Shown piece after piece: positions 1,017 to 21,491 of a stretch of DNA of 57,374 nucleotides. Positions within the stretch are counted from its first letter, which is position 1; every line of letters starts with the position of its first letter. A model generated the notes under the pieces. It was not told the DNA's origin. It was given only the letters and a program-made list of their open reading frames with translations, and searched no databases. Location: NCBI GenBank assembly GCA_025774805.1, contig JALGZR010000057.1:1-57374 (forward strand), read 5' to 3'. This DNA comes from a bacterium. Lineage in GTDB: Bacteria; ARS69. The position numbers and the translations under genes are program-made.

Positions 1017-4000
1017 ATGAGTGTGGATTCCGACCCTCGAAGCGAGCACCCGCTCCTGATCGCGCGCGAGGGACACTCGGAGTGTCTCCTGGGAAACGAG
1101 GCGATCGTGCGCGGCGCTCTCGAGGCGGGTGTCGCCTTCGCCTGCGGCTACCCGGGAACGCCGTCTTCCGAGATCACGGACACCTTCGCCCGAATCGCCA
1201 AGACCCGGGGGATCGTGTTCGAGTACTCGGTGAACGAGAAAGTGGCGCTCGAGATGGCCTTCGCCACGTCGCTCGCCGGGGCGCGGTCTCTCTGCGCCAT
1301 GAAGCACCTCGGGCTCCTCGTGGCCGGGGATCCCCTCGCGACCATCCCCTATATCGGTGTCGAGGCCGGCATGGTCGTGGTCAGCGCCGGGGATCCGGGG
1401 TGCAGCACGAGTCCCAACGAACAGGATCAGCGCCTCCTGGGGCCGATGCTGCACGTCCCGGTACTCGACCCGAGCACGCCGCAGGAGGCGCACGACATGA
1501 CGCTTTTCGCCTTCGAGCTGTCCGAGAAGAGCCGACTGCCCGTGATCCTTCGCGCCACGACGCGCGTCTGTCATTCCCGGGCGGCCGTCCGGTACGGTCG
1601 CCTTCGCGAGGCCGAAGTGCGGGGATTCGTGCGGGATCCGAAGCGCTACGTTCCGATCCCGACGAACGCGCGTCGCATGCGGGTCGAGCTCCTGGATCGT
1701 CTCGAGCATGCCGGCGCTCTCGTGGCCGGGTCGGGGTTCTTCCGCTGCGAGGGTTCCGGACCGCTCGTCATTCTGGCCGCGGGCTCCCCGGCCGCCACCT
1801 GCGCCGATCTCCTGGACGAGGAGAGGACCCCACCCGGGGTGGCTCTCTGGAGCCTGGGGGTCCTCCACCCCCTGCCGGAGGCCGAGATTGTCGAGCGACT
1901 CCGGGAAGTGGAGAGGGTGCTGGTGGTCGAGGAGCTCGAGCCCTTCGTCGAGGACCGGCTGCGGCTTCTCTGCGCGCGGCACGGCCTGACGCCCGAGATC
2001 CTCGGCAAGCGCACCGGACATCTGCCCGCGACTTTCGAGTACGAGCCGGACGTGATCCGCGTCGCTCTGGGGGAGTTTCTCGGGGCGAGACCCGAGGGTG
2101 CGCGCCGGGGGGAACCGTTCCCGGTGCCCCACAGGCCGCCGACCTTCTGTCCGGGCTGCCCCCACCGGGCCGCGTTCATCGCGGCCCGATCCGTCTTCGA
2201 CGAGGACCAGCTCTACTTCAACGACATCGGCTGCTACACCCTCGGCTACGGCCCGCCGCTCGAGACCGCGGACGCTCTGCTCTGCATGGGTGCGGGCTTC
2301 ACCCTGGCCGCCGGCGTGAGCCGGGTGACCGGGAAGCGCACGGTGGGCTTCGTCGGCGATTCGACGTTCTTCCACAGCGGAATGCCGGCACTCCTCAACG
2401 CCGTCAAGGAGGACGTCGACATGGTCGCCGTCATCCTCGACAACAAGGTGACCGCCATGACGGGCCACCAGGAGTCCGCCGGCAACGTTCCCCGGCACGA
2501 GGTCTCGATCGAGGCGGTCGTGCGCGCGCTCGGGGTCGAGCGGGTGGAGACGGTGGACGCCTACGACCTGCCCCGTACCGTCGCCGCCTTTCGTCGGGCC
2601 CGGGAGGGCCGTGGCGTGAGCGTCGTGATTGTCGAGCGAGCATGTCCCGTCCACGAGGCACGGCAGGACGGGGACCGGGCGGAGATGCGGCTGTACGAGG
2701 TGGACCCGTCGCGCTGCCGGGTGTGCGGGCGCGAGCCGGCCGGCCTGCGGTGCGAGCAGCGGACCACGCAAGGCTTCGAGCGTCAGCTCGCCCGGGGCCG
2801 CGTGATGCGCACACCGGCCTGCCCTCCGGCCGAAGCTCCTTGCACCGTCCGCTGCCCGCTCGCGCTCTGCATCCCGGGATACGTAGGTCACATCGCGGCA
2901 GGCGACTACGTCGGGGCGCTCGAGCATGTCTTGAACCGTACCCCGCTGCCCGAGACGGTCTGCCGGGTGTGCCACCGCCCCTGTGAGAGGGTCTGCGTGC
3001 GCGCGGACACCGACGCGCCGGTCGCGATCAACGATCTGAAGCGCTTCGTGGTCGCGTGGGCCGCCCGGCAGGCGGGGGATTCTCACCGACCGGAGCTCGA
3101 GCCGGTCCATGGGAAGCGGGTGGCCGTGGTCGGGGCCGGTCCCTCCGGACTCACCGCCGCCCACGACCTTCGGCTCCGCGGCTATGCCGTCACGCTGTTC
3201 GATGCCGCCGAGCGACCCGGAGGACTGCTGGCCTACGGCATCCCCTCCCATCGCCTCCCGCGCGAAGCGCTCGAACGGGATGTGGCGCGCATCCTCGGAC
3301 TCGGGATCGCGTTCGAGGGCGGCACCCGACTCGGGCGCGACATCCATCTCGATGGGCTCCTCGAGGACGGGTACGACGCCGTCTACCTCGCAGTGGGCGC
3401 GGGCCGGGCACAGGGGCTGGAGCTCGAGCGGACGCAAGCGGCGGAGGGGCCGTCCGTGGTCGAGGGGCTCGAGTACCTGAGGCGTGTCGCGTGCGACGAG
3501 CCCGTCGAGTCGGCGGGGCGCGTGGTCGTCATCGGAGGCGGCAACGCCGCCGTCGACGCCTCGCGCACGGCGCGGCGGCTCGGCGCCCGGCGGGTCGCCC
3601 TCGCGTGTCTGGAGAGCCGGACGGAGATGCCGGCTCTCGTGGAGGAGGTCGCGGCGGCGGAGCGGGAGGGCGTCGAGCTGCACCCGGGTCTGCGGCCGCA
3701 CGGCCTCGTCGCGGGGGGCGTGGTCTGTATTCCCGCCGGCGAGGACGGAGACAAGACCGTGCTGGAGGCGGACCAGGTCATCGTGGCGATCGGCCAGGAG
3801 GCAGAGCTCGACTTCCTGGATAACGACTCCCCGGCCCTCGCGAAAACCGCCGACGGCCACCTGGTGGTGGATCCCCGGACCGGCCGCACCACGCACCCCC
3901 GCATCTTCGCCGGAGGGGACGTGGCGGGGGGCGAGCGCACCGTGACCGGGGCGATGGCGGCCGGCCAGCGCGCGGCGTGGGCCATCGACCGGGAGCTGCG

Positions 4001-4376
4001 GGGAGCCGAGGCGGCCGACCGTCGGCCCCCGCCGCCGATCCCCGGAAACGGTGAGCCGCCGGAAGCTCGCGCGGAGACCCGCAAGGCCTTTCGCGCGGAT
4101 CGGACGCGTCCGCCGGAGCTGCCGGTGGATCGTCGCATCCCCGGCTTCGAGGAAGTCGTCGGCCCGCTCGAGGAGGATCGCGCGCGGGCCGAGGCGGCAC
4201 GCTGTCTGATGTGCGGCCTGTGCGGGACCTGCCGGGCGTGCATCGAGCTCTTCGCCTGCCCCGCCCTGTACGAGAGCGGCGGCCGGGTCGTCATCGATCC
4301 CGTGCTCTGCACCGGGTGCGGCGTGTGCGCCGAGCTCTGTTCCAACGACGCCATCCGGGAGGTGCCCCGTGGCTGA
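1017..4376 (+). CDS. iorA: Indolepyruvate:ferredoxin oxidoreductase alpha subunit fused to a GltD/DPD-type NAD(P)H flavoprotein
   Basis: A 1119-residue cytoplasmic protein. Residues 1-560 are IorA: the pyrimidine domain with GYPGTPSSEI, the FCPGCPHRAAF cysteine motif near 374, and the TPP domain with GDSTFFHSG near 447 and LDNKVTAMTGHQ. Normal IorA then ends in a ferredoxin domain. Here residues 600-690 are a cysteine-rich dihydropyrimidine-dehydrogenase-type Fe-S domain, 700-990 a GltD-like FAD/NAD(P) oxidoreductase (VGAGPSGLTAA near 700, VVIGGGNAAVDA near 836, GGDVAGGERT near 965), and only the last 60 residues carry the ferredoxin cysteines (CLMCGLCGTCRAC, CTGCGVCAELC). Expected reaction: arylpyruvate + CoA to arylacetyl-CoA + CO2, with electrons passed internally to NAD(P). 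A GGAG site precedes the ATG at 1017. iorB follows with an 8-base overlap. Confidence 0.9.
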   Translation: MSVDSDPRSEHPLLIAREGHSECLLGNEAIVRGALEAGVAFACGYPGTPSSEITDTFARIAKTRGIVFEYSVNEKVALEMAFATSLAGARSLCAMKHLGLLVAGDPLATIPYIGVEAGMVVVSAGDPGCSTSPNEQDQRLLGPMLHVPVLDPSTPQEAHDMTLFAFELSEKSRLPVILRATTRVCHSRAAVRYGRLREAEVRGFVRDPKRYVPIPTNARRMRVELLDRLEHAGALVAGSGFFRCEGSGPLVILAAGSPAATCADLLDEERTPPGVALWSLGVLHPLPEAEIVERLREVERVLVVEELEPFVEDRLRLLCARHGLTPEILGKRTGHLPATFEYEPDVIRVALGEFLGARPEGARRGEPFPVPHRPPTFCPGCPHRAAFIAARSVFDEDQLYFNDIGCYTLGYGPPLETADALLCMGAGFTLAAGVSRVTGKRTVGFVGDSTFFHSGMPALLNAVKEDVDMVAVILDNKVTAMTGHQESAGNVPRHEVSIEAVVRALGVERVETVDAYDLPRTVAAFRRAREGRGVSVVIVERACPVHEARQDGDRAEMRLYEVDPSRCRVCGREPAGLRCEQRTTQGFERQLARGRVMRTPACPPAEAPCTVRCPLALCIPGYVGHIAAGDYVGALEHVLNRTPLPETVCRVCHRPCERVCVRADTDAPVAINDLKRFVVAWAARQAGDSHRPELEPVHGKRVAVVGAGPSGLTAAHDLRLRGYAVTLFDAAERPGGLLAYGIPSHRLPREALERDVARILGLGIAFEGGTRLGRDIHLDGLLEDGYDAVYLAVGAGRAQGLELERTQAAEGPSVVEGLEYLRRVACDEPVESAGRVVVIGGGNAAVDASRTARRLGARRVALACLESRTEMPALVEEVAAAEREGVELHPGLRPHGLVAGGVVCIPAGEDGDKTVLEADQVIVAIGQEAELDFLDNDSPALAKTADGHLVVDPRTGRTTHPRIFAGGDVAGGERTVTGAMAAGQRAAWAIDRELRGAEAADRRPPPPIPGNGEPPEARAETRKAFRADRTRPPELPVDRRIPGFEEVVGPLEEDRARAEAARCLMCGLCGTCRACIELFACPALYESGGRVVIDPVLCTGCGVCAELCSNDAIREVPRG

Positions 4377-5013
4377 GCGGCGCCTCGCGGTCCTGCTCGT
4401 GGGCGTGGGAGGCCAGGGGGTGTTGACGGCGTCCCGGATTCTCGGAGATGCCGCTCATGCGGCCGGGAAGAATGTCGTCGTGGGGCAGCTCCACGGCCTG
4501 TCCCAGCGCGGCGGGAGCGTGGAGTGCTCCGTCCTCTTCGGGCCGGGCCGGAGCTCCTTCGTCTCGGTGGCGGACGTCGTCGTCGGCTTCGAGCCGCTCG
4601 AGACGCTGCGCGCCCGGAACCGCATGCGGCCCGGGACGAAGGTGTTGGTCAATCGAGGGCGGATCCTGCTGCCCGAGCTCGGTCGCGCGGTGCAGCCCTA
4701 TCCACCTCTCGAGCAGGTCCTGACCGAGATCCGGGCGGTGTCGTCCACCGTGGTCGAGGTGGACGGGCGCGCCGCCATGGAGAGGGTGGTGGAGGCGAGG
4801 ACCCTCAACATCGTCGTTCTCGGGGCCCTGGCCGGACTCGGGTGGCTTCCTTTCGATGAGACCAGGCTGTGGCGGGGGGTGGAGCGTCTCTGTCGCCCCC
4901 GCTACCGGGACGTCAACCGGCGGGCCTTCGACCTCGGACGCGCCCTCATCTCCGGCCCGTCCCCCGAGGTGGAGAACACGGAACCGGAGAAGGGGGCTTT
5001 GAGAAGCGGATGA
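4369..5013 (+). CDS. iorB: Indolepyruvate:ferredoxin oxidoreductase beta subunit
   Basis: A 214-residue gamma/beta-type POR subunit. The N-terminus has LLVGVGGQGVLTASRILG, the hallmark of the family, followed by GLSQRGGSVECSV. It completes the 2-oxoacid oxidoreductase encoded upstream. The GTG start at 4369 overlaps the iorA stop by eight bases and has a GGGAGG ribosome site at 4357-4362; its stop overlaps the next ATG (ATGA at 5010). The overlaps indicate translational coupling and a stoichiometric complex. Substrate preference for aryl pyruvates follows from family similarity and context, not from a specific residue. Confidence 0.92.
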   Translation: MAERRLAVLLVGVGGQGVLTASRILGDAAHAAGKNVVVGQLHGLSQRGGSVECSVLFGPGRSSFVSVADVVVGFEPLETLRARNRMRPGTKVLVNRGRILLPELGRAVQPYPPLEQVLTEIRAVSSTVVEVDGRAAMERVVEARTLNIVVLGALAGLGWLPFDETRLWRGVERLCRPRYRDVNRRAFDLGRALISGPSPEVENTEPEKGALRSG

Positions 5014-7151
5014 CCGAGCGATTCAAGCTGGGCATCGACGTCGGCGGGACGTTCACGGACCTGTTCCTCTGGTCCTCGAGCGGAGAGGTGGCGACCTTCA
5101 AGGTGCTCTCCACCCCCCACGACCCCTCCGTGGGCGTGGTCGACGGCCTGCAGCGCATCGCCGCGGGCAAGAAGCTCGAGGTGGAGCATCTCGGTCCGCT
5201 CATCGATGCCATCGTCCACGGCACCACCGTCACCACGAACGCGGTGCTCACCCGAGGCGGGGCCTCCGTGGGGCTCCTCACGACCGAGGGCGTGCGGGAC
5301 GCCCTGGAGATGCGGCGCGGAATCAGGGAGGAGCAGTACGACAACCGTTACCGCAACGTCGTTCCGCTCGTGCCGCGCTATCTCCGTCGCCCGGTGCGCG
5401 GGCGACTCGACTACCGCGGCGTGGAAATCGAGCCGCTCGACGCGGAGGGAGTGTTCCGGGCCTGCGGAACGATGCGCGAAGAAGGCGTAGAGTCCGTCGC
5501 CATCTGCTTCATGAATGCCTTCGCCAATCCGGCCCATGAGCGGGCCGCCGCCGAGATCGTGCGCTCGGAGATGCCGGGCGCCTACCTGAGCGTATCGAGC
5601 GAAGTCGTTCCCACGATCCGCTTCTACAATCGCGTCTCTACCACGGTGCTCAACGCCTACGTCGGGCCCGTGCTGCGCGACTACTTGAAGAGCCTCGAAG
5701 CCCGTCTCGCGCGCGTGGGCTTCGAGGGAGCGCTGCTGATCATGCAGTCGAGTGGCGGCGTGGGGCTGCCGGAGTCGATGGTCGAACGGCCCGCGGCCAC
5801 GCTCCTCTCGGGGCCGGCGGCCGGTCCCCGGGCGGCCGTCAGCTTCTCCGAGGAGCACGACCGACCGTCCTGCCTCGTCGTCGACATGGGCGGCACGAGC
5901 TTCGACGCTTCGCTGGTGCGCGACGGCCGGGTGGCGCTCCGGGCGGAGGGGGACATCGACCGCCTCCGCATCGCCCTTCCGATGCTGGAGATCGTGACGA
6001 TCGGCGCGGGGGGAGGGAGCGTGGGCTGGATCGACGCCGGCGGCCTCCTGCGCATGGGCCCCGAATCCGCCGGGGCCGACCCGGGACCGGCCTGCTACGA
6101 CCTCGGAGGGGTGCGCCCCACGTGCACGGACGCGGACCTGCTGCTGGGGTACCTGGACCCGGACAACTTCGCCGGCGGGAAGATGAAGCTGCGGCCGGAG
6201 CTCGCCCGCCGGGCGATCGCGGAGCACGTCGGCCGGCCGCTCGGCCTCGGCGAGGAGCAGGCCGCGGCCGGCATGTACCGCGTGATCAACTCCAACATGG
6301 CGCACGGGGTGCGCGAGATCACCATCAAGCGCGGTCTCGATCCACGGGACTTCCCCATGGTGATGGCCGGCGGGGCGGGTGCGCTGCACGCGTGCATGAT
6401 CGCCGACGAGCTGGACATCCCGGCCGTGGTGGTCCCGGGTCCCGCCTCGGTTCTCTGCGCCGTCGGCATGCTGATGAGCGACCTGCAACACGACTACGTC
6501 CGCTCCTACGTGACCCGGATTTCCACTTTGGATCCCGAGGCCCTGAGGACGCTCGTGTCGGAGATGGTCTCGGCGGGGGAGGAGCAGCTCGCGCGGGAGG
6601 GAGTGCCGGAAGAACGACGCGAGCACCTCGCTGCTCTCGACCTGCGCTACCTCAAGCAGTATCACGAGGTCACCGTGTGGGTGACCCGCGAGGCGATCGA
6701 AGCGGGGGACCTGGAGGCTCTCACGGCTCCGTTCCACGCCGAGCACAATCGTCTCTACGGCTACGACCTGGCCGCGGAAGGGACGGGACTCGAGCTCATC
6801 AACGTCCGGGTCCGCTCGCTGGGTCGCACGGAGAAGCCCGCGCTCCCTCGCCTCGCGCGGGGCGACCCGGATCCCGGTCCCGCTTTCCGAGGGCGGCGGC
6901 GGGCCTTCGTCCCCGACCGGGATGAGTTCGACGAGGTACCGGTGTACGACGGCCACGCGCTGCGGGCCGGGAACGAGGTTTCGGGCCCCGCCCTGCTCGA
7001 GCGGACGGATACCACCATCTTCGTCAGCGCCGCTTATGCGGCGCGGATCGACGACCGGGGAAGCGCCCTTCTGCAACGGAACGGAGGCGCCGGCGGGAGC
7101 GCGACGAGGGCGGAGCGCACCGCGGTCGGAACCGCACGGAGCGACCGATGA
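5010..7151 (+). CDS. Hydantoinase A / acetone-carboxylase beta-type ATP-dependent subunit
   Basis: A 713-residue HyuA-family protein. GIDVGGTFTDLF at residues 8-19 and DMGGTSFDASLV near 291 are the two phosphate-binding loops of the actin-like ATPase fold. HGTTVTTNAVLTR and GPAAGPRAA are further family motifs. The ATG at 5010 overlaps the iorB stop; a longer frame to 4869 exists but lacks support. Family members use ATP to open cyclic amides (hydantoins, oxoprolines) or to activate ketones for carboxylation. Next to a Mo-hydroxylase and an Ior complex, the most consistent role is ATP-dependent opening of the lactam ring of 2-oxoindole-3-acetate, as proposed for IaaC/IaaE. The substrate is inference. 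Confidence 0.88.
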   Translation: MTERFKLGIDVGGTFTDLFLWSSSGEVATFKVLSTPHDPSVGVVDGLQRIAAGKKLEVEHLGPLIDAIVHGTTVTTNAVLTRGGASVGLLTTEGVRDALEMRRGIREEQYDNRYRNVVPLVPRYLRRPVRGRLDYRGVEIEPLDAEGVFRACGTMREEGVESVAICFMNAFANPAHERAAAEIVRSEMPGAYLSVSSEVVPTIRFYNRVSTTVLNAYVGPVLRDYLKSLEARLARVGFEGALLIMQSSGGVGLPESMVERPAATLLSGPAAGPRAAVSFSEEHDRPSCLVVDMGGTSFDASLVRDGRVALRAEGDIDRLRIALPMLEIVTIGAGGGSVGWIDAGGLLRMGPESAGADPGPACYDLGGVRPTCTDADLLLGYLDPDNFAGGKMKLRPELARRAIAEHVGRPLGLGEEQAAAGMYRVINSNMAHGVREITIKRGLDPRDFPMVMAGGAGALHACMIADELDIPAVVVPGPASVLCAVGMLMSDLQHDYVRSYVTRISTLDPEALRTLVSEMVSAGEEQLAREGVPEERREHLAALDLRYLKQYHEVTVWVTREAIEAGDLEALTAPFHAEHNRLYGYDLAAEGTGLELINVRVRSLGRTEKPALPRLARGDPDPGPAFRGRRRAFVPDRDEFDEVPVYDGHALRAGNEVSGPALLERTDTTIFVSAAYAARIDDRGSALLQRNGGAGGSATRAERTAVGTARSDR

Positions 7152-8875
7152 GCGACGGACCGGCGATCGACAAGGTGCTCGTGGCGATCATCGGCCACGC
7201 GCTCAAGGCGATCACGGACGAGATGAGCATCGCCATGCAGAAGACCACGCGCTCGCCGATCCTCTGCGAAGCCAAGGATTTCGTCACCGGACTGTACGAC
7301 GCCGAAGGTCGGATGCTGGAACAGACCGAGAACCTCCCCATCCTGAGCTTTTCGCTCGGACCCGTCTGCCGCCACATCGCCGAGCGATTCCGCGGCGAGG
7401 TGTATCCCGGCGACGTCTTCTTCCACAACGACGTGTTCTCGCTGGGCAATCAGAACAACGACGTGGCCGCCTTCAAGCCCATCTTCGTGGGGGACACCCT
7501 GGTCGCGTGGGCCGCCTGCAAGGGCCACCAGGCCGACATCGGCGGGGCCGTGCGCGGCGGCTACAACCCCAATGCCACCGAGGTCTGGCAGGAGGCGCTG
7601 CGGATTCCCGCCGTCAAGGTCTACGAGCGCGGCGAGCTGCGTCGCGACGTTTGGGATCTCATCTTCGCGAACGTCCGCCTGCCGATCGTTCAGGAGGACA
7701 TGCGCGCGGAGATCGGCGGCTGCACGGTGGGCGACCGGCGACTGTGCGCGCTCGTCGAGAAGTACGGGCTCGAGCGGTTCGAAGCCCACAAGGAGGCGCT
7801 CTTCGAGTCCACGCGACGAATGATGGAGGCGGAGATCCGGAGCATCCCCAACGGCACCTACCGGGGCGAGAGCACGGTCTACTTCGACGGCCGCACCCCC
7901 GGCTCCCGCTACCGGATCCGGGTGAAGATCACGGTGGAGGACGAGCGCATCGTCTTCGACTACTCCGACACCGATCCCCAGACGACCGGCTTCGTCAACG
8001 GCACGTACACGTCGAGCGCCTCGGCCACGACGCTCACGTTCCTGCAGATGGTGAACTCGGAGATTCCCCACAATCACGGGATGATCGAGCCCCTCGAGAT
8101 CATCATCCCGGAGGGGACGATCCTCAACGCCGCCTACCCCGCGGCGACGACCTTCGGCAACCACCTCTGCCCCCCGAACGCGGACGCGATCATCCGCGCG
8201 CTGGCTCCTGTGATCCCCGAGCGGGTGACGGCCGGCTGGAACAACCTGCTCTGTTCCCTCTCCTCCGGCCATGACCCGCGGCGTCAAGACACCTACGTGG
8301 ACATTCTCTTCATGGGTCTCAAGGGCGGATCCGGTGCGACGCACGACTGCGACGGCTACGACCACATCGGCATGATCGACGCCTCGGGCGGGCTGCTGGA
8401 TCAGGACTACGAGATGTTCGAGCAGCAGACTCCCCACCGTCTGGAGAAGCACGAATTCCTGACGGACTCGGCCGGCCCGGGTCGCTTCCGCGGGGGACTC
8501 GGCGTGGAGACGCGCTATCGGGTGGGGGGCGAGGGGACGCAGATCGTCGTGTTCGGCGACGGAGACGTGGAGCCCGCGTTCGGGCTGTTCGGCGGCGGGC
8601 CGGGCACGCTCAACAAGATCGAGCTCCATCGTCCGGACGGAACGGTCGGGAAGACGACGAGCAAGGATCTGATCACGGACGTGCCGGCCGGCACTCTCTA
8701 CGTGCAGGAGGCCGGCCCGCCGGTCGAGCGCCCCGCGGAGGTGGTGGCGCGGGAGGTGCGCGACGGGAAGATCTCGCCCGCGGCGGCGGCCGAGCGGTAC
8801 GGCGTGGTCGTGGACCCGGAGACGATGGAGCTTCGGACGGAGGAGACGAAGACGCTGCGCGCGAGCAAGGCGTGA
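7148..8875 (+). CDS. Hydantoinase B / acetone-carboxylase alpha-type subunit
   Basis: A 575-residue HyuB-family protein, partner of the gene before it, with an ATGA overlap at 7148. Recognisable segments are ALKAITDEMS, SPILCEAKDF, GDVFFHNDVF and the glycine-rich GRFRGGLGVETRY near the C-terminal quarter. Length is typical for HyuB. The A and B subunits together form the ATP-dependent amidohydrolase or carboxylase. The 65 residues after the glycine-rich core are Glu/Arg-rich and resemble tails of acetophenone-carboxylase-like members. No acetone-carboxylase gamma subunit is found, which favours a hydrolase over a carboxylase. Confidence 0.88.
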   Translation: MSDGPAIDKVLVAIIGHALKAITDEMSIAMQKTTRSPILCEAKDFVTGLYDAEGRMLEQTENLPILSFSLGPVCRHIAERFRGEVYPGDVFFHNDVFSLGNQNNDVAAFKPIFVGDTLVAWAACKGHQADIGGAVRGGYNPNATEVWQEALRIPAVKVYERGELRRDVWDLIFANVRLPIVQEDMRAEIGGCTVGDRRLCALVEKYGLERFEAHKEALFESTRRMMEAEIRSIPNGTYRGESTVYFDGRTPGSRYRIRVKITVEDERIVFDYSDTDPQTTGFVNGTYTSSASATTLTFLQMVNSEIPHNHGMIEPLEIIIPEGTILNAAYPAATTFGNHLCPPNADAIIRALAPVIPERVTAGWNNLLCSLSSGHDPRRQDTYVDILFMGLKGGSGATHDCDGYDHIGMIDASGGLLDQDYEMFEQQTPHRLEKHEFLTDSAGPGRFRGGLGVETRYRVGGEGTQIVVFGDGDVEPAFGLFGGGPGTLNKIELHRPDGTVGKTTSKDLITDVPAGTLYVQEAGPPVERPAEVVAREVRDGKISPAAAAERYGVVVDPETMELRTEETKTLRASKA

Positions 8876-8886
8876 GGAGCACCGGG

Positions 8887-10003: not shown

Positions 10004-10441
10004 ATGGAAGCGCGAGGGCCCATTCGCGTCCTGATGGCAAAGCCGGGACTCGACGGCCACGACGTCGGCGCCAAGCTCGTGTGCCGCGCGCTGATGGACG
10101 CCGGGATGGAAGTGATCTACACCGGTCTGCGGCAATCCCCCGAGGTCATCGCCCGGGACGCGGCGGACCGCGGGGTCGACGTGATCGGTCTGTCCATTCT
10201 CTCGGGCGCGCACATGCCGCTGTGCCGCAAGCTGGCGGAGCAACTGCGGGCGGTCGGGGCGGAGGACTTGACCTGGATCGTCGGGGGGAACATCCCCTCC
10301 CGGGACCACGAGGCGTTGCACGAGTTGGGAGTGAGCGGAGTCTTCCCCGTCGGCGCCTCCCTGGAAGAGATCGTGGAGTTCATTCGACGGAAGGTCCGGC
10401 CGGAGGATTCCGGCGAGACCCGAGAGCAGGTGCGCCCGTGA
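10004..10441 (+). CDS. Small cobalamin-binding subunit of an acyl-CoA mutase
   Basis: A 145-residue stand-alone B12-binding domain of the methylmalonyl-CoA mutase type. LDGHDVGAK (Asp17-x-His19-x-x-Gly) is the base-off/His-on cobalt-ligand motif; SILSG and WIVGGN are the S-x-L and GG motifs that hold the nucleotide tail. The stop forms a GTGA overlap with the gene for the large subunit. The split two-subunit layout is found in isobutyryl-, hydroxyisobutyryl- and (2-aminophenyl)succinyl-CoA mutases, and in archaeal methylmalonyl-CoA mutase. No MeaB-type chaperone or reactivase gene is in the window. Confidence 0.92.
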   Translation: MEARGPIRVLMAKPGLDGHDVGAKLVCRALMDAGMEVIYTGLRQSPEVIARDAADRGVDVIGLSILSGAHMPLCRKLAEQLRAVGAEDLTWIVGGNIPSRDHEALHELGVSGVFPVGASLEEIVEFIRRKVRPEDSGETREQVRP

Positions 10442-13271: not shown

Positions 13272-14122
13272 GGGCCTTCGACTACCACCGCCCGACCTCT
13301 CTCGAGGAGGCATGGCAGCTCAGGGCCGGGTGTCCCGAGGCGCGCTACATCGCCGGCGGGACCGACCTGATGGTGCTGATGCGAGCGGGGGCCGTGCGGC
13401 CGCCTTCCGTGATCTCGCTGCGCGGAATCGAGGAGCTTCGCGGGATCGAGGTGGGGGAGCCCACCCGAATCGGCGCGATGACCACGATCGGCGAGATCCT
13501 CGAGCACCGCGAGCTCGGCGAGCGCCACCCGGTGCTGCACGACGCCGCCCGCCCTTTCGGAAGCGTCCAGGTCCGTAACCTCGCCAGCGTGGGGGGCAAC
13601 CTCTGCAACGCCTCCCCGTGTGCGGGCCTGCCTCCGGCCCTGTACGTGCTGGACGCGCGGGTTCGCGTCGCGGGCCCCGAGGGAGACCGCGTGCTGCCGA
13701 TCGAGGAGCTCTTCGCGGCACCGGGCGAAACGTGCCTGATCCCCGGCGAGGTCCTCACCGAGGTCCTGCTCGATCCGCCGCCTCCGGGGGTGCGATCGCG
13801 CTATCTGAGGAGGGGTCGGGTGCGGATGGATCTCGCGTTCGTCAGCGTGGCGGTGCTGATCGGACTGAATGGCGGCCGGTGCGCGCGGGCGCGGGTGGCG
13901 GCCGGAGCGGTGGCGCCGAGGCCGCTGCGGTTGCGGGCCGTCGAGGAGTTGCTGGAGGGGCGGGCCCTCGAGCCGCCGCTTCTGGCCGAGGCGCGCGCCC
14001 GGGTCGAGCAGGAGATCTCTCCGATCACCGACGTGCGCGCGAGCGCCGGATACCGCCGGCACATCACCGGCGTTCTCTTCCAGCGGGCGGTCGAGTCGCT
14101 CCTGAACGGAGGCGGAGGATGA
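13268..14122 (+). CDS. Molybdenum hydroxylase FAD-binding (medium) subunit
   Basis: A 284-residue protein of the CO-dehydrogenase/xanthine-dehydrogenase medium-subunit family. IAGGTDLMVLM near residues 28-38 binds FAD, and NLASVGGNLCNASPC is the second flavin motif. GTG start at 13268 overlaps the previous stop, and the stop overlaps the next ATG. It passes electrons from the 2Fe-2S subunit to an acceptor. No 4Fe-4S insert of the HcrB type is seen, so the acceptor may be NAD or a quinone-linked carrier rather than ferredoxin; this is a weak inference. Confidence 0.9.
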   Translation: MRAFDYHRPTSLEEAWQLRAGCPEARYIAGGTDLMVLMRAGAVRPPSVISLRGIEELRGIEVGEPTRIGAMTTIGEILEHRELGERHPVLHDAARPFGSVQVRNLASVGGNLCNASPCAGLPPALYVLDARVRVAGPEGDRVLPIEELFAAPGETCLIPGEVLTEVLLDPPPPGVRSRYLRRGRVRMDLAFVSVAVLIGLNGGRCARARVAAGAVAPRPLRLRAVEELLEGRALEPPLLAEARARVEQEISPITDVRASAGYRRHITGVLFQRAVESLLNGGGG

Positions 14123-14679
14123 CCGTGGAGTGCACGCTGACCGTCAACGGCTCGAGGACCGTCGTTCGCGTGTCCCCGAGCGATCGGCTTCTCGACGTGC
14201 TGCGAGGTCCGCTCGCGCTGACCGGAACGAAGGAGGGGTGCGGGGCCGGGGAGTGCGGCGCCTGCACGGTGCTTCTCGACGGGAAGGCGATCAACGCGTG
14301 CCTCCTGCCGGCCCTGGAGGCCGAGGGGGCGGAGATCACGACGGTCGAGGGACTCGTCGGCCCGGGGGGAAGGCTCTCGGTCGTCCAGCGGGCGCTCGTC
14401 GAGCACGGCGGCATCCAGTGCGGATTCTGCAGCCCGGGAATGATCATGGCGACAACGGCGCTGCTGAGCTCCAATCCGTCGCCGACCGACGCCGAGATCC
14501 GTGACGCTCTCACCGGCAACCTCTGCCGGTGCACCGGCTACGTGCAGATCGTGGCCTCGGTGAAGGCCGCGGCCGAGGAGATGCGTGCCCGGGATTCCGT
14601 GGACGCCGGAAGGAGCGCCCGGGAGGAGGAACGGCCGGTGGTGAGGAGTGGAGTCGCCGGGAGGGCGGGCGGTGGCTGA
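14119..14679 (+). CDS. Molybdenum hydroxylase 2Fe-2S (small) subunit
   Basis: A 186-residue iron-sulphur subunit. The plant-type cluster motif GCGAGECGACTVLLDG and Cys in INACLLPA lie in the N-terminal half; QCGFCSPGMIMA and NLCRCTGYVQIV in the C-terminal half bind the second cluster close to the molybdenum cofactor. The family usually ends near residue 155; here about 25 extra Arg/Glu-rich residues follow and are probably disordered. Coupled by ATGA to the FAD subunit upstream, it overlaps the large subunit by eight bases. Confidence 0.93.
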   Translation: MTVECTLTVNGSRTVVRVSPSDRLLDVLRGPLALTGTKEGCGAGECGACTVLLDGKAINACLLPALEAEGAEITTVEGLVGPGGRLSVVQRALVEHGGIQCGFCSPGMIMATTALLSSNPSPTDAEIRDALTGNLCRCTGYVQIVASVKAAAEEMRARDSVDAGRSAREEERPVVRSGVAGRAGGG

Positions 14680-17074
14680 GCTTCGGTACATCGGCAAGGA
14701 GCGAGCCCGTCCGGATGCGGCCGACAAGGCAACGGGCCGCGCTCACTACATCCACGACCTCACTCGGCCCGGCATGCTCCACGGCAAGATCAAGTTCAGC
14801 GAGCACTCGCACGGCCGCATCCGGCACATCGACACCTCCCGGGCCGAGCGCCTTCCCGGCGTGCGGGCCGTGATCACCGGCCACGACACGCCGGAGATCC
14901 GCCACGGGTTCCTGCGCGACAATTTCGCCCTCAAGCGGGACAAGGTTCGCCAGTATCGCGACGAGGTCGCGGCCGTGGCGGCCGTCGATCCGGACATCGC
15001 CGCCGAGGCGGTGGAGCTGATCCGAGTCGAGTACGAACCTCTTCCGGCCGTGTTCGTCGTGGAGGAGGCGCTGCGGGAGGACGCCCCGCTCGTTCACGAG
15101 CGGGACGCCGCGGGACGGCCGCGAACCAGCAACCTCGTGAACGTGACCTGCCGCCACGAGTCGGGCGACCTCGCGGCCGGGGAGCAGGCGAGCCGGCACG
15201 TCGTCGAGGGAGAGTTCACGACTCAGCTCGTTCAGCAGAGCTGCCTGGGGACGGCCGGCTGCATCGCGGAGTTCGACGCGAACGGGAACCTCACGATGTG
15301 GGCGAAGACCCAGATTCCGTTCCTGGCCCAGCGCCATTTCGGCGAGGCGCTGAGGGCGATGGGGCTCGCCGGCCGCAACGTGCGGGTGATCGTCCCGAAC
15401 CTCGGCGGCGGTTTCGGGACCGGGCTGGATACGCATGCCTACGAGTACATCGCGATTCTCCTCGCCCACCGGACGAACCGCCCCGTGAAGATCGTGTACG
15501 AACGGGAGGAGGAGTTCGCGAACCTCTCGCCCCGACAGTCCGCGCGCGTGCGGATCGCCCAGGGCTGCGACGCGGACGGCCGCCTGACCTTCCGGCGCGC
15601 GGAGGTGGAGCAGGACAATGGCGCGTACACGTCCTGGGGCGCGACCTATCCGACGGTCATGCTGCTCCCCGCCACGTCTCTCTACCGCGTTCCGAACGTC
15701 CGCTTCGACGCCCGCCTCGTGTACACGAACAACACGTACTGCCAGGCCATGCGCGGCTACGGAAACCCGGAGATGACCTGGGCCATCGAGAGCAACCTGG
15801 ACGAGCTGGCCGAGGCCGCCGGCATGGACGCCCTCGAGCTCCGCACCATCAACTGCAACCGGCCCGGGGAGACGACCCCCATGGGGCTGAGGGTGGGCTC
15901 GTGCGGGCTCGCGGAGTGTCTCGAAAAAACGGCGACGCGCCTCGACTGGGAGAACAAGCGCGGCGCCCGGCGGGGCAAGCGCCGCGGCGTGGGGATGGCG
16001 TCGCTCATGCACGTCGGCGGCTCCGGCCGCATCTATCGTTCCGACGGCGGAGGGGTCATCCTCAAGCTGGACGACTTCGGCAACGTCAACGTCTCCTGCG
16101 GGGGAGTCGAGATGGGTCAGGGGCTGCACTCCGCCCTCAGCCTGGCCGTCGCCGAGGCTCTCGGTCTGCCGCCGGAGCGCATCATCATCAATCCGACCGA
16201 CACGGGCACCTGTCCCTGGGACGTCGGGACTCACGCGAGCCGGGGCGCGTTCGTGGCCTGCAACGCCGCGCTCATCGCCGCCGAGAAGGTGCGGAACGAG
16301 ATCTTCGCACTGGCCGAAGAGCTGTTTCCGGCGGAGGTCGAGAGAAACCTCGCGCGCCACCGCAAATCGCACCCCGGCTATCGTCCCCCCGAGTTCGACG
16401 TGGCGGAGGCCGCGAAGGCGGATCGGTTCGAACTGCGCGACGGCTTCCTCGGCATCCGGGGCGCACCGCGCGAGCCCTGGCTCCGGGTGGACCTCGGCCG
16501 TCTGTTGCGGTCGATCCACTTTCGCGGGCGGGCGGGCCGGATGATCACGGCGGAGGCCTACTACGAGCCGAACAGCGAGCTGCCCGACTGGAAGGAGGGG
16601 AAGGGAAATCTGTCCGCCGCCTACGCGTTCGGCACGCAGGGGGCGGAGGTGGAAGTCGACGAGGACACGGGGGAGGTCCGGATCCTGCGCCTGGTGGCGG
16701 TGCACGACGTGGGTAAGGTCCTCAATCCGCAGACCCTCGCGGGCCAGATCTACGGCGCGCTGGCGCAGGGCGTGGGCTACGCGCTCTACGAAGAGGTCCT
16801 GACGGAGGCCGGTCGGATTCTCAACCCCGGCTTCACGGACTACAAGATTCCGTCCGCGGGCGACCTGGGCTTCCCGATCGAGATCGAGTTCGTCGAGACG
16901 GAGGAGGCCGCGGGTCCGTTCGGGGCGAAGGGGGTCGGCGAGCCGGGCCTCGTTCCCACGGCGCCGGCCATCGCCAACGCCATTCACGATGCCGTCGGCG
17001 TACGCATCCGGGATCTGCCGATCACTCCCGAAAAAGTGCTCGCCGCCCTGAGAGGAAGACCGGATGGGCTCTGA
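14672..17074 (+). CDS. Molybdenum hydroxylase molybdopterin-binding (large) subunit
   Basis: An 800-residue large subunit of the xanthine dehydrogenase family. GGGFGTGLDTHAYEY, MRGYGNPEMTWAIES, GGVEMGQGLHSALS and the catalytic Glu757 in FGAKGVGEPGL are present. GTG start at 14672 lies eight bases inside the previous gene; a longer frame to 14648 exists. The MRGYGNPE loop and the CGLAECLE segment resemble enzymes hydroxylating aromatic acids or their CoA esters rather than xanthine. In this operon it is the best candidate to hydroxylate C2 of indoleacetate (or its CoA ester), giving the oxindole that the HyuAB pair would open. No XdhC-type maturation gene is in the window. Confidence 0.9.
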   Translation: MAELRYIGKERARPDAADKATGRAHYIHDLTRPGMLHGKIKFSEHSHGRIRHIDTSRAERLPGVRAVITGHDTPEIRHGFLRDNFALKRDKVRQYRDEVAAVAAVDPDIAAEAVELIRVEYEPLPAVFVVEEALREDAPLVHERDAAGRPRTSNLVNVTCRHESGDLAAGEQASRHVVEGEFTTQLVQQSCLGTAGCIAEFDANGNLTMWAKTQIPFLAQRHFGEALRAMGLAGRNVRVIVPNLGGGFGTGLDTHAYEYIAILLAHRTNRPVKIVYEREEEFANLSPRQSARVRIAQGCDADGRLTFRRAEVEQDNGAYTSWGATYPTVMLLPATSLYRVPNVRFDARLVYTNNTYCQAMRGYGNPEMTWAIESNLDELAEAAGMDALELRTINCNRPGETTPMGLRVGSCGLAECLEKTATRLDWENKRGARRGKRRGVGMASLMHVGGSGRIYRSDGGGVILKLDDFGNVNVSCGGVEMGQGLHSALSLAVAEALGLPPERIIINPTDTGTCPWDVGTHASRGAFVACNAALIAAEKVRNEIFALAEELFPAEVERNLARHRKSHPGYRPPEFDVAEAAKADRFELRDGFLGIRGAPREPWLRVDLGRLLRSIHFRGRAGRMITAEAYYEPNSELPDWKEGKGNLSAAYAFGTQGAEVEVDEDTGEVRILRLVAVHDVGKVLNPQTLAGQIYGALAQGVGYALYEEVLTEAGRILNPGFTDYKIPSAGDLGFPIEIEFVETEEAAGPFGAKGVGEPGLVPTAPAIANAIHDAVGVRIRDLPITPEKVLAALRGRPDGL

Positions 17075-18218
17075 TCGAAAAGCGGATACCTCCACCGAAG
17101 GTCACAGCCAGGTGCGACAGAAGCTCGCCGTGGAGATGATCTGTCCCTACGAACCCGGGAAACCCATCCGCGAGGTGCAGCGGGAGCTCGGTCTCGAGCA
17201 CATCGTCAAGCTCGCCTCCAACGAGAACCCGCTGGGGCCCTCGCCGCGCGTGATCGACACGCTCAACCGGGACCAACTCGAGCTTCACCACTATCCCGAT
17301 TACGACGGCTGGTATCTGCGGCGCGCGATCGCCGATCGGCTCGGGATCTCCATGGACTGGATCGTGGTGGGGGCGGGCTCCTCCGATCTGATGCGATTGA
17401 TCGCAGACGTCTACCTCGGCGCCGGCACGGCAGCCGTCGTCAGCGACATCTGCTTCCCGGTCTATGCGAACGCGGCGCGGATCGAAGGCGCGGACGTCGT
17501 CACGGTCCCGCTCGACCCCGAGCTTCGCTACGATCTCGATCGAACGCTCGACGCGATCTCCCCCAGCACGCGAATCGTCTTCCTCGCGTCGCCGAACAAC
17601 CCGACCGGCCTGGAGATTCCGAGCGGCGAGCTGTTCGCGTTCGTGGAGAAGGTGCCGCCGGACGTCCTCTGCGTGCTCGATCTCGCCTATCACGACTACG
17701 TGCCTCCGGAGCGTCGCCTGGACGCACTGGAGCTGCTGCGGAGACACTCGAACGTGGTTCTGCTCCACACGTTTTCGAAGGCCTACGGTCTCGCCGGTCT
17801 CCGCGTGGGTTACGCGATCGCGGCGGATGACGTGAGCTCGGCGCTGAGCCGGGTCCGCATCCCCTTCACCACCAGCACTCCGGCCCAGGTGGCGGGCCTC
17901 GCCGCGCTGAAGGACTTGGAGCATACCGAGAGATCCGTCGCGCTCAACGATTCCATGCGCCGGCGTCTCGAACACGATCTCGCGGCGCTCGATCTCCGCG
18001 TCCGTCCCTCGAGCGCGAACTTCGTGCTCGCGGACACCGGGGTGGACTCGGACGCCGTCTTCGCGCGCATGCTCCATCGAGGGGTGATCGTCCGGCCCCT
18101 GCACGATCCCCGTCTGAACACCTGCCTTCGCATCACGACCGGCACCGAGGAGGAGCTGGATCTCGCGATCGGCGCCCTCGAGGAAGTGCTGGCGGAGTGT
18201 AGGTCCGTCATGCCCTGA
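17064..18218 (+). CDS. HisC-like class I/II aminotransferase, probably aromatic amino acid
   Basis: A 384-residue PLP enzyme close to histidinol-phosphate aminotransferase. KLASNENPLGPSPRV at the N-terminus, SPNNPTGLEI, YHDYVP and the PLP lysine Lys239 in TFSKAYGLAGLRVGY are diagnostic. It overlaps the Mo-hydroxylase gene by 11 bases and no other histidine gene is near. HisC homologues in catabolic operons often act on aromatic amino acids. Here it would make indolepyruvate (or another arylpyruvate), the substrate of the Ior complex encoded in the same operon. The specificity is inference. Confidence 0.88.
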   Translation: MGSDRKADTSTEGHSQVRQKLAVEMICPYEPGKPIREVQRELGLEHIVKLASNENPLGPSPRVIDTLNRDQLELHHYPDYDGWYLRRAIADRLGISMDWIVVGAGSSDLMRLIADVYLGAGTAAVVSDICFPVYANAARIEGADVVTVPLDPELRYDLDRTLDAISPSTRIVFLASPNNPTGLEIPSGELFAFVEKVPPDVLCVLDLAYHDYVPPERRLDALELLRRHSNVVLLHTFSKAYGLAGLRVGYAIAADDVSSALSRVRIPFTTSTPAQVAGLAALKDLEHTERSVALNDSMRRRLEHDLAALDLRVRPSSANFVLADTGVDSDAVFARMLHRGVIVRPLHDPRLNTCLRITTGTEEELDLAIGALEEVLAECRSVMP

Positions 18219-18232: not shown

Positions 18233-20257
18233 ATGACCGTCGAAACACGCCCATCGCATCTCAATCCACTGCTGAACCGATCGGCCCGGCCGATGCCGCG
18301 ACGAATCGCCGTCGTGGGGGCCGGGACGATCGGCCCCGACATCGCCTACTACCTGATCAGCTCCATCCCGGATCTGAGGCTGTCCCTGGTCGATGTCGTC
18401 CCCGAGGCCCTCGACCGGGCGACGAAGCGTCTCGCGGGCTACGTGGAGAAGGGGCTCGCGAAGAAGAAGCTGACCGAGGAGCAGGCCCGCGGCGTCCGCG
18501 AGAACGTGGTCCCGACTCTGGACTACGGCGACATCGCGGACTGCGACTGGGTGCTGGAGGCGGCGACCGAGAACATCGAGCTCAAGCACCGGATCTTCGA
18601 GCAGGTCGAGGCGATCGTCTCTCCGAAGGCCCTGATCACGTCGAACACGAGCTCCCTGCCCGCCTCGCGCGTCTTTGCGGGACTCACCCACAAGGGACGC
18701 GCCACGGTCACGCACTTCTTCGCCCCGGCGTTCCGGAACCCGGTCGTCGAGATCGTGCACTGGGCGGATGGAGACCCGGAAACGGTGGAGTATCTCGACT
18801 GGCTGTTTGCCGCCACGGGAAAGGTGCCGCTCATCACCTCGGACGCGATCTGCTTCATGCTCGACCGCATCTTCGACAACTGGTGCAACGAGGCGGCGTA
18901 CCTGCTCGACGAGGCCACGGCGGCCGAGGTCGACAGCACGGCGAACGAGTTCGTTCACGCCGGCCCCTTCTTCGTGCTGAACCTCGCGCGCGGCAATCCC
19001 ATCATCGTGGAGACGAACACGCTCCAGATGGAGGAGGGAGCGCACTACCGGCCGGCCCCCATTCTCCGCTCGGTGGACACCTGGACCACCGTCGGGCCCG
19101 GGAAGCGGGCGCCGGTGGCGCCGGAGACGGCCGCGCGGATCCGCGATCGCCTGCTCGGGATCCTCCTCTCCCAGTCCCTCGATGTCCTCGACCGCTCCAT
19201 CGGCCTTCCGTCGGATCTGGACCTCGGCTGCCGTCTCGCTCTCGGCTTCAAGCGGGGACCGCTGGATCTGATGCGCCGGCTCGGAGATCAGGAGGTGAGA
19301 CGGATACTGGATCGGCTCGTGAGCGAGCGACCGGGCATGCCCCTCCCCGAGCGGCCCCTGGAGAGCTATCAAGGGTTCCTGCGTCACGTGCTCGTGGACG
19401 ACCTCGACGGGGTCAAGGTGATCACGCTGCGCCGGCCCGACGCGTTGAATGCGCTCAACGACGAGGTGACCGACGAGGTGCTGTTCGTCCTGAGGGAGCA
19501 CGAAGGGGATCCGAACGTGGTCGGCTTCGTGATCGTGGGATACGGGCCGCGGGCGTTCTGCGCGGGCGCGGACATCGGTCGCTTCCCGGAGGTCCTCGGC
19601 GACGCGGAGGCCGCGGCTCGCTATGCACGGGACTGCTCGCGCCTTCTCGTGCATCTCGACGCCATGACGAAACCGGTGGTGGCGGCGCTCAACGGGATGG
19701 CGCTGGGAGGCGGGCTGGAGCTCGCGATCCGCTGCCACGCGATCGTGGCGCAGCGCAGCGCCTGGCTCCAGTTCCCGGAGGTCACGCTGGGGATCGCGCC
19801 GGGAATCGGCGGCATGGCGGTGCCCTATCGTCGCTGGCCGCAGGCGGCCGAGACCTTCCACGACATGCTCCGGACGGCCCGGAAGCTCTCCGCGGCAGAC
19901 GCGCACGACCTGGGGGTGGTGGTCGGACTGGCCGGAAGCTACGAGGAGTTGATGGAGCTCGCCGTCGAGCGGGTGCGCGGCCTCGGGGAGGGGGCGGCGC
20001 CGACACCGGACGGCTCCGTCGACATCCCCCCGCTCGAGGAGATCGAGGCCGTCGCGGCGAACGGCATGCCGCTCAGCCGGGAGACGATCGGTATCATCAC
20101 GGAGGCGGTTCAGCGATGCGCCGGGGCACCCCACTTGGCGGAGGCTCTGGACATCGGCTACCGGGCGTTCGCGAAGACCGCGTGCGCGGAGGCGGCCCGG
20201 GAGGGGGTCGCCGCGTTCCTGGAGAAACGCAAACCGGATTTCACGAAGACCGGGTAA
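18233..20257 (+). CDS. Fused 3-hydroxyacyl-CoA dehydrogenase / enoyl-CoA hydratase
   Basis: A 674-residue bifunctional beta-oxidation protein. Residues 22-360 are the dehydrogenase: VVGAGTIGPDIAYY binds NAD, SNTSSLP and His161 in THFFAPAFRNP are catalytic, and two C-terminal 3HCDH domains follow. Residues about 385-674 are a crotonase: GYGPRAFCAGADIGRF forms the oxyanion hole, and LGGGLELAI and FPEVTLGIAPGIGG carry the two catalytic Glu. The order (dehydrogenase first) is the reverse of FadB/FadJ and resembles archaeal and some bacterial fusions. It would hydrate and oxidise an arylacryloyl-CoA such as 2-aminocinnamoyl-CoA. A GAAAGGGG site precedes the ATG at 18233; an internal ATG at 18293 is a possible alternative. 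Confidence 0.92.
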   Translation: MTVETRPSHLNPLLNRSARPMPRRIAVVGAGTIGPDIAYYLISSIPDLRLSLVDVVPEALDRATKRLAGYVEKGLAKKKLTEEQARGVRENVVPTLDYGDIADCDWVLEAATENIELKHRIFEQVEAIVSPKALITSNTSSLPASRVFAGLTHKGRATVTHFFAPAFRNPVVEIVHWADGDPETVEYLDWLFAATGKVPLITSDAICFMLDRIFDNWCNEAAYLLDEATAAEVDSTANEFVHAGPFFVLNLARGNPIIVETNTLQMEEGAHYRPAPILRSVDTWTTVGPGKRAPVAPETAARIRDRLLGILLSQSLDVLDRSIGLPSDLDLGCRLALGFKRGPLDLMRRLGDQEVRRILDRLVSERPGMPLPERPLESYQGFLRHVLVDDLDGVKVITLRRPDALNALNDEVTDEVLFVLREHEGDPNVVGFVIVGYGPRAFCAGADIGRFPEVLGDAEAAARYARDCSRLLVHLDAMTKPVVAALNGMALGGGLELAIRCHAIVAQRSAWLQFPEVTLGIAPGIGGMAVPYRRWPQAAETFHDMLRTARKLSAADAHDLGVVVGLAGSYEELMELAVERVRGLGEGAAPTPDGSVDIPPLEEIEAVAANGMPLSRETIGIITEAVQRCAGAPHLAEALDIGYRAFAKTACAEAAREGVAAFLEKRKPDFTKTG

Positions 20258-20297: not shown

Positions 20298-21491
20298 ATG
20301 GCGCTCGAGAAAAGTTACATCCCGTACGGGGCCTACTGGAGCACGCCCTTCTGCCGGTGGCAGGGGTCCCTGGGGCATCTCCACTCCGTGGAGCTGGCCG
20401 CGGGGACGACCCGGACCTTCCTGAGCGAAAAGGGGTTCTCGCCGGACACGTTCGACAGCCTGGTGCTCGGCACCACGATCATGCAACGGCATGGTCTCTA
20501 CGGTGCACCATGGCTCGCCGGGATGATCGGCGCTCCGACGATCACCGGTCCCACCGTCTCCCAGGCGTGCGCGACGTCGGTGCGGATGCTGGCGACGGCC
20601 GCGTTCGAGGTCGAGCTCGGGCAACGCGACTGCGTCCTCACCGTGGCGTGCGATCGGACGAGCAACGGTCCCCACGTCTACTACCCGAACCCGCTCGGCA
20701 CGGGCGGAATGGGAAAGCCCGAGGATCCGGTCTGGGACAACTTCAACTCGGATCCCAACACCGGCCAGTCCATGATCCAGACGGCCGAGAACGTGGCCAA
20801 GGAAGCCGGGATCACGAGGGAAGAGGAGGACGCGCTCACTCTGGTCCGCTACGGACAATACGAGGACGCTCTGGCCGACGACCGGGCCTTCCAGCGGCGC
20901 TACATGCTCCCGGTGGAGCTCAGGCGCGGAAAGAAGGTGACCGGAACAGTGGAAGCCGACGAGGGCGTGTTCCCCACGACGGCCGACGGACTGGCGAAGC
21001 TCCGGCCCGTGCTGGACGGGGGCACGGTCACGTTCGGTACGCAGACATACCCGGCCGACGGCAACTCCGGGCTCGTGGTCTGCGGAAAGGAGCAGGCGAC
21101 CCGCCTCGGCGGAGACGCGAACGCGGTCATTCAACTGTGCAGCTTCGGGGAGGCGCGCGTCGAGCCGGCCATGATGCCGAAGGCGGTGGTGCCGGCGGCC
21201 CGAGACGCGCTGACGCGGGCCGGGATCGAGATCGGGGACTGTGCCGTCATCAAGACGCACAACCCCTTTGCCGTGAACGACGTGCTCTTCTGCCGCGAGC
21301 TCGGTCTCGAGCCGGGGCGGATCAATCGGTACGGATCCCCCTTGATCTGGGGACATCCCCAGGCACCCACCGGGCTCCGGGCCGTCATCGAGATGATCGA
21401 GGAGCTTTTCCTCTCGGGCGGGGGCTACGGCCTCTTCTCGGGATGCGCCGCCGGCGACACGGCCATGGCGGTCGTCGTGAAGATGGGTTGA
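20298..21491 (+). CDS. Thiolase (acetyl-CoA C-acyltransferase)
   Basis: A 397-residue thiolase. The nucleophile Cys91 is in TVSQACATSVRM. The C-terminal motifs are KTHNPFAVNDVLF (in place of NEAFA), WGHPQAPTGLR and SGCAAGDTAMAVV, which holds the second cysteine. The motif variants differ from the common FadA/AtoB types, suggesting a substrate other than straight fatty acyl-CoA. As the last gene of the run it would cleave a 3-oxo-3-arylpropionyl-CoA to aroyl-CoA and acetyl-CoA. The 40-base gap from the previous stop holds an AGAGGAT ribosome site. Confidence 0.9.
   Translation: MALEKSYIPYGAYWSTPFCRWQGSLGHLHSVELAAGTTRTFLSEKGFSPDTFDSLVLGTTIMQRHGLYGAPWLAGMIGAPTITGPTVSQACATSVRMLATAAFEVELGQRDCVLTVACDRTSNGPHVYYPNPLGTGGMGKPEDPVWDNFNSDPNTGQSMIQTAENVAKEAGITREEEDALTLVRYGQYEDALADDRAFQRRYMLPVELRRGKKVTGTVEADEGVFPTTADGLAKLRPVLDGGTVTFGTQTYPADGNSGLVVCGKEQATRLGGDANAVIQLCSFGEARVEPAMMPKAVVPAARDALTRAGIEIGDCAVIKTHNPFAVNDVLFCRELGLEPGRINRYGSPLIWGHPQAPTGLRAVIEMIEELFLSGGGYGLFSGCAAGDTAMAVVVKMG

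Follow-up and report, generated by a model that had tools for sequence, protein, structure and literature searches.

A predicted tryptophan-to-2-aminobenzoyl-CoA operon with an indolepyruvate oxidoreductase entry in a bacterium of a rare phylum

The stretch of DNA analysed here (the window; 57,374 nucleotides, contig JALGZR010000057.1 of assembly GCA_025774805.1) is contig 252 of the 5.1 Mb draft genome G000, and it holds an operon of fourteen genes on the forward strand (g1 to g14; 1017-21491) whose products very probably convert tryptophan all the way to 2-aminobenzoyl-CoA and acetyl-CoA. This reading is built on the gene content, the orthology of the core enzymes to the iaa cluster of Aromatoleum, their diagnostic residues and the absence of a gene for the ligase IaaB from the operon, all of which were observed directly; from the orthology we infer every reaction given below, the use of tryptophan as substrate above all, and also NAD(P)+ as electron acceptor. 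With such a gene set, tryptophan could be broken down completely to an aromatic CoA ester, and neither oxygenases nor a ligase step nor free indoleacetate would be required. The core pathway itself is already known (PMC8360864). New, as far as the literature we found goes, are the host from a rare phylum, the fully joined entry from tryptophan with a fused indolepyruvate oxidoreductase (IOR), the pattern of IOR or IaaB across phyla, and an additional gene, g0.

The operon is compact, with most neighbouring genes overlapping by 4-32 bp and a widest internal gap of 40 bp. A preliminary description, made from the sequence alone, had named an enzyme class for each of the fourteen overlapping or closely spaced genes, and Pfam and NCBIfam scans assign all of them accordingly. 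It had also stated that every step is supplied in sequence, which holds for the coverage of the steps but not for the gene order, as the latter differs from that of the pathway. The run from the IOR alpha gene to the gene for the molybdopterin (Mo) subunit of a Mo-hydroxylase is collinear in genome G121 (locus L026) and in two metagenome-assembled genomes (MAGs) of Acidobacteria (L032 and L033), and hence the gene order is not due to chance.

The proposed route would begin with g12 (17064-18218; PF00155, TIGR01141), a HisC-like aminotransferase predicted to transaminate tryptophan to indolepyruvate. The fused IOR would then oxidise indolepyruvate to indoleacetyl-CoA and CO2, with the electrons probably passed to NAD(P)+ via a GltD-like module. 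Its alpha subunit, g1 (1017-4376), combines a thiamine pyrophosphate (TPP) part matching TIGR03336 with a GltD-like FAD/NAD(P) module and a 4Fe-4S domain (Pyr_redox_2, Fer4_20, Fer4), and the beta subunit, g2 (4369-5013), has a POR domain (PF01558) and falls below the cut-offs of all IOR beta equivalog models. An oxo group at C2 would be added by the Mo-hydroxylase, which is composed of a FAD subunit (g9, 13268-14122; PF00941, PF03450), a 2Fe-2S subunit (g10, 14119-14679; PF01799, PF00111) and the molybdopterin subunit (g11, 14648-17074; PF20256, PF02738, PF01315). HyuA (g3, 5010-7151; PF01968) and HyuB (g4, 7148-8875; PF02538), the predicted alpha and beta subunits of a 2-oxoindoleacetyl-CoA lactamase, are expected to open the lactam in an ATP-dependent manner. 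Because the IOR would leave CoA on the side-chain carboxyl, the wrong one for the mutase, a CoA transfer is needed at this point, and the IaaL-type class III CoA-transferase g8 (12060-13271; PF02515) would shift CoA intramolecularly to the ring-adjacent carboxyl, as reported for IaaL (PMC8360864). From its position behind an AGGAGG, GTG 12060 is more likely to be the start of g8 than 11994.

The two-subunit B12 mutase may then convert (2-aminophenyl)succinyl-CoA to (2-aminobenzyl)malonyl-CoA; it consists of a small B12-binding subunit (g6, 10004-10441; PF02310, and TIGR00640 above cut-off) and a large subunit of the phenylsuccinyl-CoA/benzylmalonyl-CoA type (g7, 10438-12048). The IaaF-type acyl-CoA dehydrogenase g5 (8872-10002) would oxidise and decarboxylate its product to 2-aminocinnamoyl-CoA. 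The beta-oxidation would be finished by g13 (18233-20257; PF02737, PF00725, PF00378), in which an N-terminal 3-hydroxyacyl-CoA dehydrogenase is fused to a C-terminal enoyl-CoA hydratase, and then by g14 (20298-21491; PF00108, PF02803), a predicted 2-aminobenzoylacetyl-CoA thiolase.

Core enzymes and the Aromatoleum iaa cluster

Judged by sequence, the core enzymes are orthologues of those in the iaa cluster described for A. evansii KB740 and A. aromaticum EbN1, which serves the oxygen-independent degradation of the plant hormone indoleacetate and includes IaaB, IaaCE, IaaF, IaaGH, IaaL and others. The correspondence covers the lactamase, the mutase, the decarboxylating dehydrogenase, the CoA-transferase, the hydratase/dehydrogenase and the thiolase. 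Three genomes served as reference (Aromatoleum toluclasticum, A. toluvorans and A. evansii KB740), and identities to them are 57-58% for HyuA, 67-69% for HyuB, 59-60% for the dehydrogenase, 61% for the B12 subunit, 64% for the mutase, 52-54% for the CoA-transferase, 64-67% for the hydratase/dehydrogenase and 55-58% for the thiolase. All of these except the B12 subunit were also seen to group with Aromatoleum and not with outgroups from PDB or among paralogues, in agreement with the earlier identification of the core as the Iaa pathway. The phylogenetic comparison that the preliminary description had suggested places the mutase and HyuAB with the Iaa enzymes, and the CoA-transferase likewise (support 56), while the dehydrogenase was placed by identity and motif, without a tree. 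That description had set the pathway in denitrifying Aromatoleum/Azoarcus; the orthology agrees with this. Clusters outside Aromatoleum have also been published, in Ferroglobus, Desulfatiglans and others, sulfate reducers and archaea among them (PMC8360864), and additional phyla have versions linked to an IOR (see below).

Where ordinary acyl-CoA dehydrogenases have the catalytic YEG, IaaF has the hallmark GGG, and it has been proposed that IaaF removes CO2 rather than a proton (PMC8360864); g5 carries GGG in the aligned position at residues 360-362 (9949-9957, forward strand). Relatives were collected by a search with g5, which found G121 (L026), and then by scanning an alignment of five GGG dehydrogenases against named genomes; the resulting set of named-genome loci is limited to the 80 that match the window best, and Ferroglobus and Desulfatiglans are not among them. 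Of the relatives that are at least 50% identical to g5 and whose alignment extends to the motif, all 79 have GGG; four of the five others, read directly, have it too, and the fifth (L079) breaks off at a contig end. A search of plasmids with g5 gave ordinary dehydrogenases only (about 42% identity).

The large mutase subunit g7 falls into a clade of 68 rows (SH-aLRT, the approximate likelihood ratio test, = 99) apart from human methylmalonyl-CoA mutase (MCM), 2-hydroxyisobutyryl-CoA mutase and 14 further relatives. MCM and 2-hydroxyisobutyryl-CoA mutase share with g7 the fold family and the dependence on B12, but the barrel motifs of g7 are altered: at about 35 positions all 68 rows have an identical residue that the MCM-type relatives rarely or never have, and substitutions common to g7 and Aromatoleum and absent from MCM include HCQTSG to IAGGGG or IAAGGG, with SLHTNS to TMALCS as another change of the clade. 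The carboxylate-binding residues that the preliminary description had noted in the split mutase g6-g7 are kept as Y64 and R182 (Y89 and R207 of MCM), and a Leu sits at the GYDSD position, beyond the conserved Tyr equivalent to MCM Tyr89. In 2-hydroxyisobutyryl-CoA mutase, Ile90, Asp117 and Gln208 correspond to Tyr89, Ala116 and Arg207 of MCM, and at these diagnostic sites g7 has Tyr, Ala and Arg, not Ile, Asp and Gln. Both MCM and 2-hydroxyisobutyryl-CoA mutase are thus ruled out as identities of g7 by tree and residues.

HyuB (support 97) and HyuA (support 90) also form clades with their Aromatoleum counterparts, apart from caprolactamase (CapAB) and N-methylhydantoinase, and these trees rule out an ordinary hydantoinase or caprolactamase. 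Proteins of such a HyuAB cluster have been called predicted 2-oxoindoleacetyl-CoA lactamases (PMC5214803). The CoA-transferase g8 is closer to Aromatoleum than to the other proteins tested (31-37% identity), and g13 and g14 fall into clades with Aromatoleum against their paralogues (support 100 each). For the Mo-hydroxylase subunit g11, the nearest solved structure is 4-hydroxybenzoyl-CoA reductase, itself a CoA-ester enzyme; on the tree g11 lies in a group apart from this reductase and CoxL, but a less similar sequence from Krumholzibacteriia is placed within that group as well.

Compared with the Aromatoleum cluster, which likewise has a three-subunit Mo-hydroxylase and has the identical order HyuA-HyuB-acyl-CoA dehydrogenase-B12 subunit-mutase, the operon in the window lacks IaaB and the binding protein IaaM and possesses an aminotransferase and an IOR instead. 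It also differs in having the CoA-transferase gene ahead of the Mo-hydroxylase genes, and in the extra gene g0.

Entry into the pathway across phyla

An upper part leading from the amino acid had been proposed to be joined to the Iaa core, and the aminotransferase and IOR genes are indeed found in the same operon, with tryptophan as the presumed substrate. TIGR03336 (IOR_alpha) is the best-scoring of 68 models for g1, and the IOR of the window shares the TPP, POR_N and POR domains with the indolepyruvate:ferredoxin oxidoreductase IorAB, from which it differs by the GltD-like FAD/NAD(P) module fused to the C-terminus of its alpha subunit. This fusion also occurs at several Bacteroidetes loci and in L026, L032, L033, L036 and L037; L099 does not have it. 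The GltD-like module suggests NAD(P)+ as the electron acceptor of the fused enzyme. Phenylglyoxylate:NAD+ oxidoreductase has a separate GltD-like subunit, which the fusion in g1 recalls, although we take this as a lead only. As to the product, related IOR-type enzymes produce indoleacetyl-CoA (PMC13290082).

In classical iaa operons the IaaB gene sits between those for the thiolase and HyuA. No IaaB was found in the operon of the window, the closest ligase in the whole genome being 34% identical, and a search of the window with the binding protein that adjoins the Aromatoleum CoA-transferase, IaaM, gave no match. IaaM was seen solely at IaaB-type loci, the extent of the compared flanks differing between loci. 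Among the 80 loci and G121, 19 operons have an IOR of the window type and all of them are without IaaB, while 39 operons have IaaB and all are without this IOR; in L099 the IOR pair occupies the exact position of IaaB in the Aromatoleum operon. The two states are separated by one change on the mutase tree, therefore indicating one event and not many independent ones. The IOR operons are distributed over non-proteobacterial branches plus one Polyangiaceae locus, and the IaaB operons are proteobacterial. In six proteobacterial loci (L076, L087, L089, L100, L102 and L107) a different IOR-like gene, of the PRK13029 type in L087 where it was scanned, lies about 1.5 kb after the CoA-transferase gene. 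IaaB is present as well in five of them, and L089 is truncated at the place where it would be expected. A link to 2-oxoacids is therefore not confined to operons like that of the window.

IOR-linked operons were identified in Acidobacteria (L032, L033 and L099), Planctomycetota (L037 and L079), Polyangiaceae (L036) and G121 (L026), and they share the order of the two IOR genes, HyuAB, acyl-CoA dehydrogenase, B12 subunit and mutase with the window as far as their contigs reach. The operon is hence not unique to its genome, as Acidobacteria loci have the same one. L099 deviates in having an unfused IOR and in keeping the classical order. In L032, L033 and L026 an aminotransferase gene follows the Mo subunit gene as in the window; those of L032 and L033 are 58-59% identical to g12, but the one in L026 is non-orthologous and belongs to another family, so that amino-acid input became linked to the core through different genes.

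These findings show one conserved core that can be entered via two enzymes, a ligase or an oxidoreductase. The gene set occurs in the rare phylum of the host, Acidobacteria, Planctomycetota, Polyangiaceae and probably Bacteroidetes, and we found no such pathway described for these groups in the literature searched. Many iaa genes in metagenomes may accordingly signal turnover of protein or amino acids instead of auxin. Anaerobic auxin degradation is perhaps by origin tryptophan degradation, in which case the IOR-fed operons of several phyla would be the more ancient form, and the auxin-using operon of denitrifying Proteobacteria, fed by IaaB, would go back to a single later switch of the entry enzyme; we hold this only tentatively, at somewhat less than even chances, and a sample of 80 best matches cannot settle it.

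Alternative readings

One alternative keeps the Iaa core but gives it a broad or different entry, with an aminotransferase and IOR that act on more than one aromatic amino acid, and a lower pathway that mainly uses indoleacetate or indoleacetyl-CoA from other sources. IORs commonly accept a range of aryl pyruvates (PMC13290082), IaaB is accompanied by an IOR of another type in some proteobacterial operons, and the substrate of g12 is uncertain, its score exceeding the HisC cut-off (TIGR01141; 309.6 versus 276.55 bits). We nevertheless consider this alternative unlikely: neither IaaB nor IaaM was found in the window, the Mo-hydroxylase and lactamase would be superfluous for phenylalanine or tyrosine, and the IOR and the core stay linked in several phyla. 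A role of g12 in histidine biosynthesis is itself made unlikely because HisB (PF00475) was not found in G000, while 13 of 14 control genomes have it. Clearly less probable still is that the same reactions take place on a different nitrogen-containing ring, for instance the histidine imidazole or that of a substituted tryptophan; g12 is HisC-like, and HyuAB and Mo-hydroxylases are known from many pathways for N-heterocycles, yet HyuB, the mutase, the dehydrogenase, the hydratase/dehydrogenase and the thiolase are 55-69% identical to Aromatoleum iaa proteins, and the clade-specific residues of mutase and dehydrogenase are common to both. Generic annotation would suggest that the mutase, CoA-transferase and dehydrogenase act on propionate or branched-chain acids and that the adjacent Hyu and Mo genes are an independent cluster for hydantoin, purine or nicotinate, since it yields exactly such names; trees, residues and the collinearity with iaa operons speak against this, as does another mutase gene at C10 of the same genome, and we regard it as extremely improbable.

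The tryptophan route remains the preferred reading, and several observations count against it. The Mo subunit g11 is just 44-45% identical to Aromatoleum (37-47% for the Mo-hydroxylase subunits collectively), the clade support of g8 is weak, g1 scores 634.9 bits against TIGR03336 with a cut-off of 650.9, and G000 is a draft genome with 96% completeness and 5% contamination. The contig itself shows no sign of being a contaminant, its operon having tetranucleotide correlations of 0.90-0.95 with other G000 contigs. As to the fate of the product, BoxB and BoxC of the benzoyl-CoA epoxidase pathway exceed their cut-offs in G000 (L117, G000:C221), where the adjoining genes encode a 3-hydroxyacyl-CoA dehydrogenase and an aldehyde dehydrogenase, and BoxBC could take benzoyl-CoA-type products; they are defined for benzoyl-CoA, however, and not for 2-aminobenzoyl-CoA. 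The specificity of an IOR for indolepyruvate is, moreover, not readable from sequence (PMC13290082).

Host genome, gene g0 and related operons

G000 further contains a benzoyl-CoA-reductase-like cluster that scores below its cut-offs, as well as COX1-type terminal oxidase genes. The suggestion that the host is probably not a proteobacterium proved right, as it belongs to none of the large known phyla but to one with five genomes in the compared set. In the other four genomes of this phylum no mutase more than 47% identical and no close dehydrogenase was found, and among 60 relatives no mutase exceeded 54% identity, with none of the short flanks of the closer matches being iaa-like. Large proteins encoded at 29500-36650 and 56345-57373 have C-terminal tails like the sorting domains of FlgD or the type IX secretion system (T9SS), and a repeat protein in these regions resembles one on contig C221, hinting at a host from the Fibrobacteres-Chlorobi-Bacteroidetes (FCB) group.

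The cluster has a fifteenth, conserved gene, g0 (369-959, forward strand), which lies 57 bp upstream of g1 and encodes 196 amino acids with a predicted V4R/Bet3-like fold. Its homologues at iaa loci are found in L026 (62% identity), where the gene follows that for the Mo subunit, in L041 (48%), where it is located between HyuB and the dehydrogenase, and in L086 (42%). Among 193 genomes they were found at iaa loci only, except for a 111-bp fragment located at the end of a contig from a genome of the same family (L124, G004:C5:5631-5741), which encodes a g0-like stretch (78%) running into another frame. This contig end is probably chimeric, and the operon may be present in that lineage. The protein has a weak match to PF14196 (ATC_hydrolase) and invariant Cys, Trp and His residues, and its model (predicted local distance difference test, pLDDT, 74) matches TRAPPC3/Bet3 and the aromatic sensor domains of MopR/PoxR with Z of 8-10. 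On the basis of this model, g0 may bind an aromatic ligand or zinc.

Several other loci contain related gene combinations. L028 and L029 (G088:C6) have a GGG dehydrogenase (52%), an iaa-like mutase, a distant HyuAB (38/30%), a distant CoA-transferase and an amidohydrolase-like long open reading frame, and perhaps represent a sister pathway for another substrate. The low-GC operons L030 and L031 comprise a GGG dehydrogenase, a CoA-transferase and four ABC-transporter-like genes, and in L031 also a Mo-enzyme and B12 genes; they are probably uptake-fed relatives of the Iaa pathway. In KSB1 (L041:3521-8411) a close dehydrogenase and mutase are accompanied by a HyuAB of a distant type (39/28%), with the g0 homologue in between, and a gammaproteobacterial MAG (L069) has two head-to-head sets of iaa genes within 21 kb. 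Downstream of the operon in the window lies a photolyase-like gene (23789-25237; TIGR00591, 365 bits, below cut-off).

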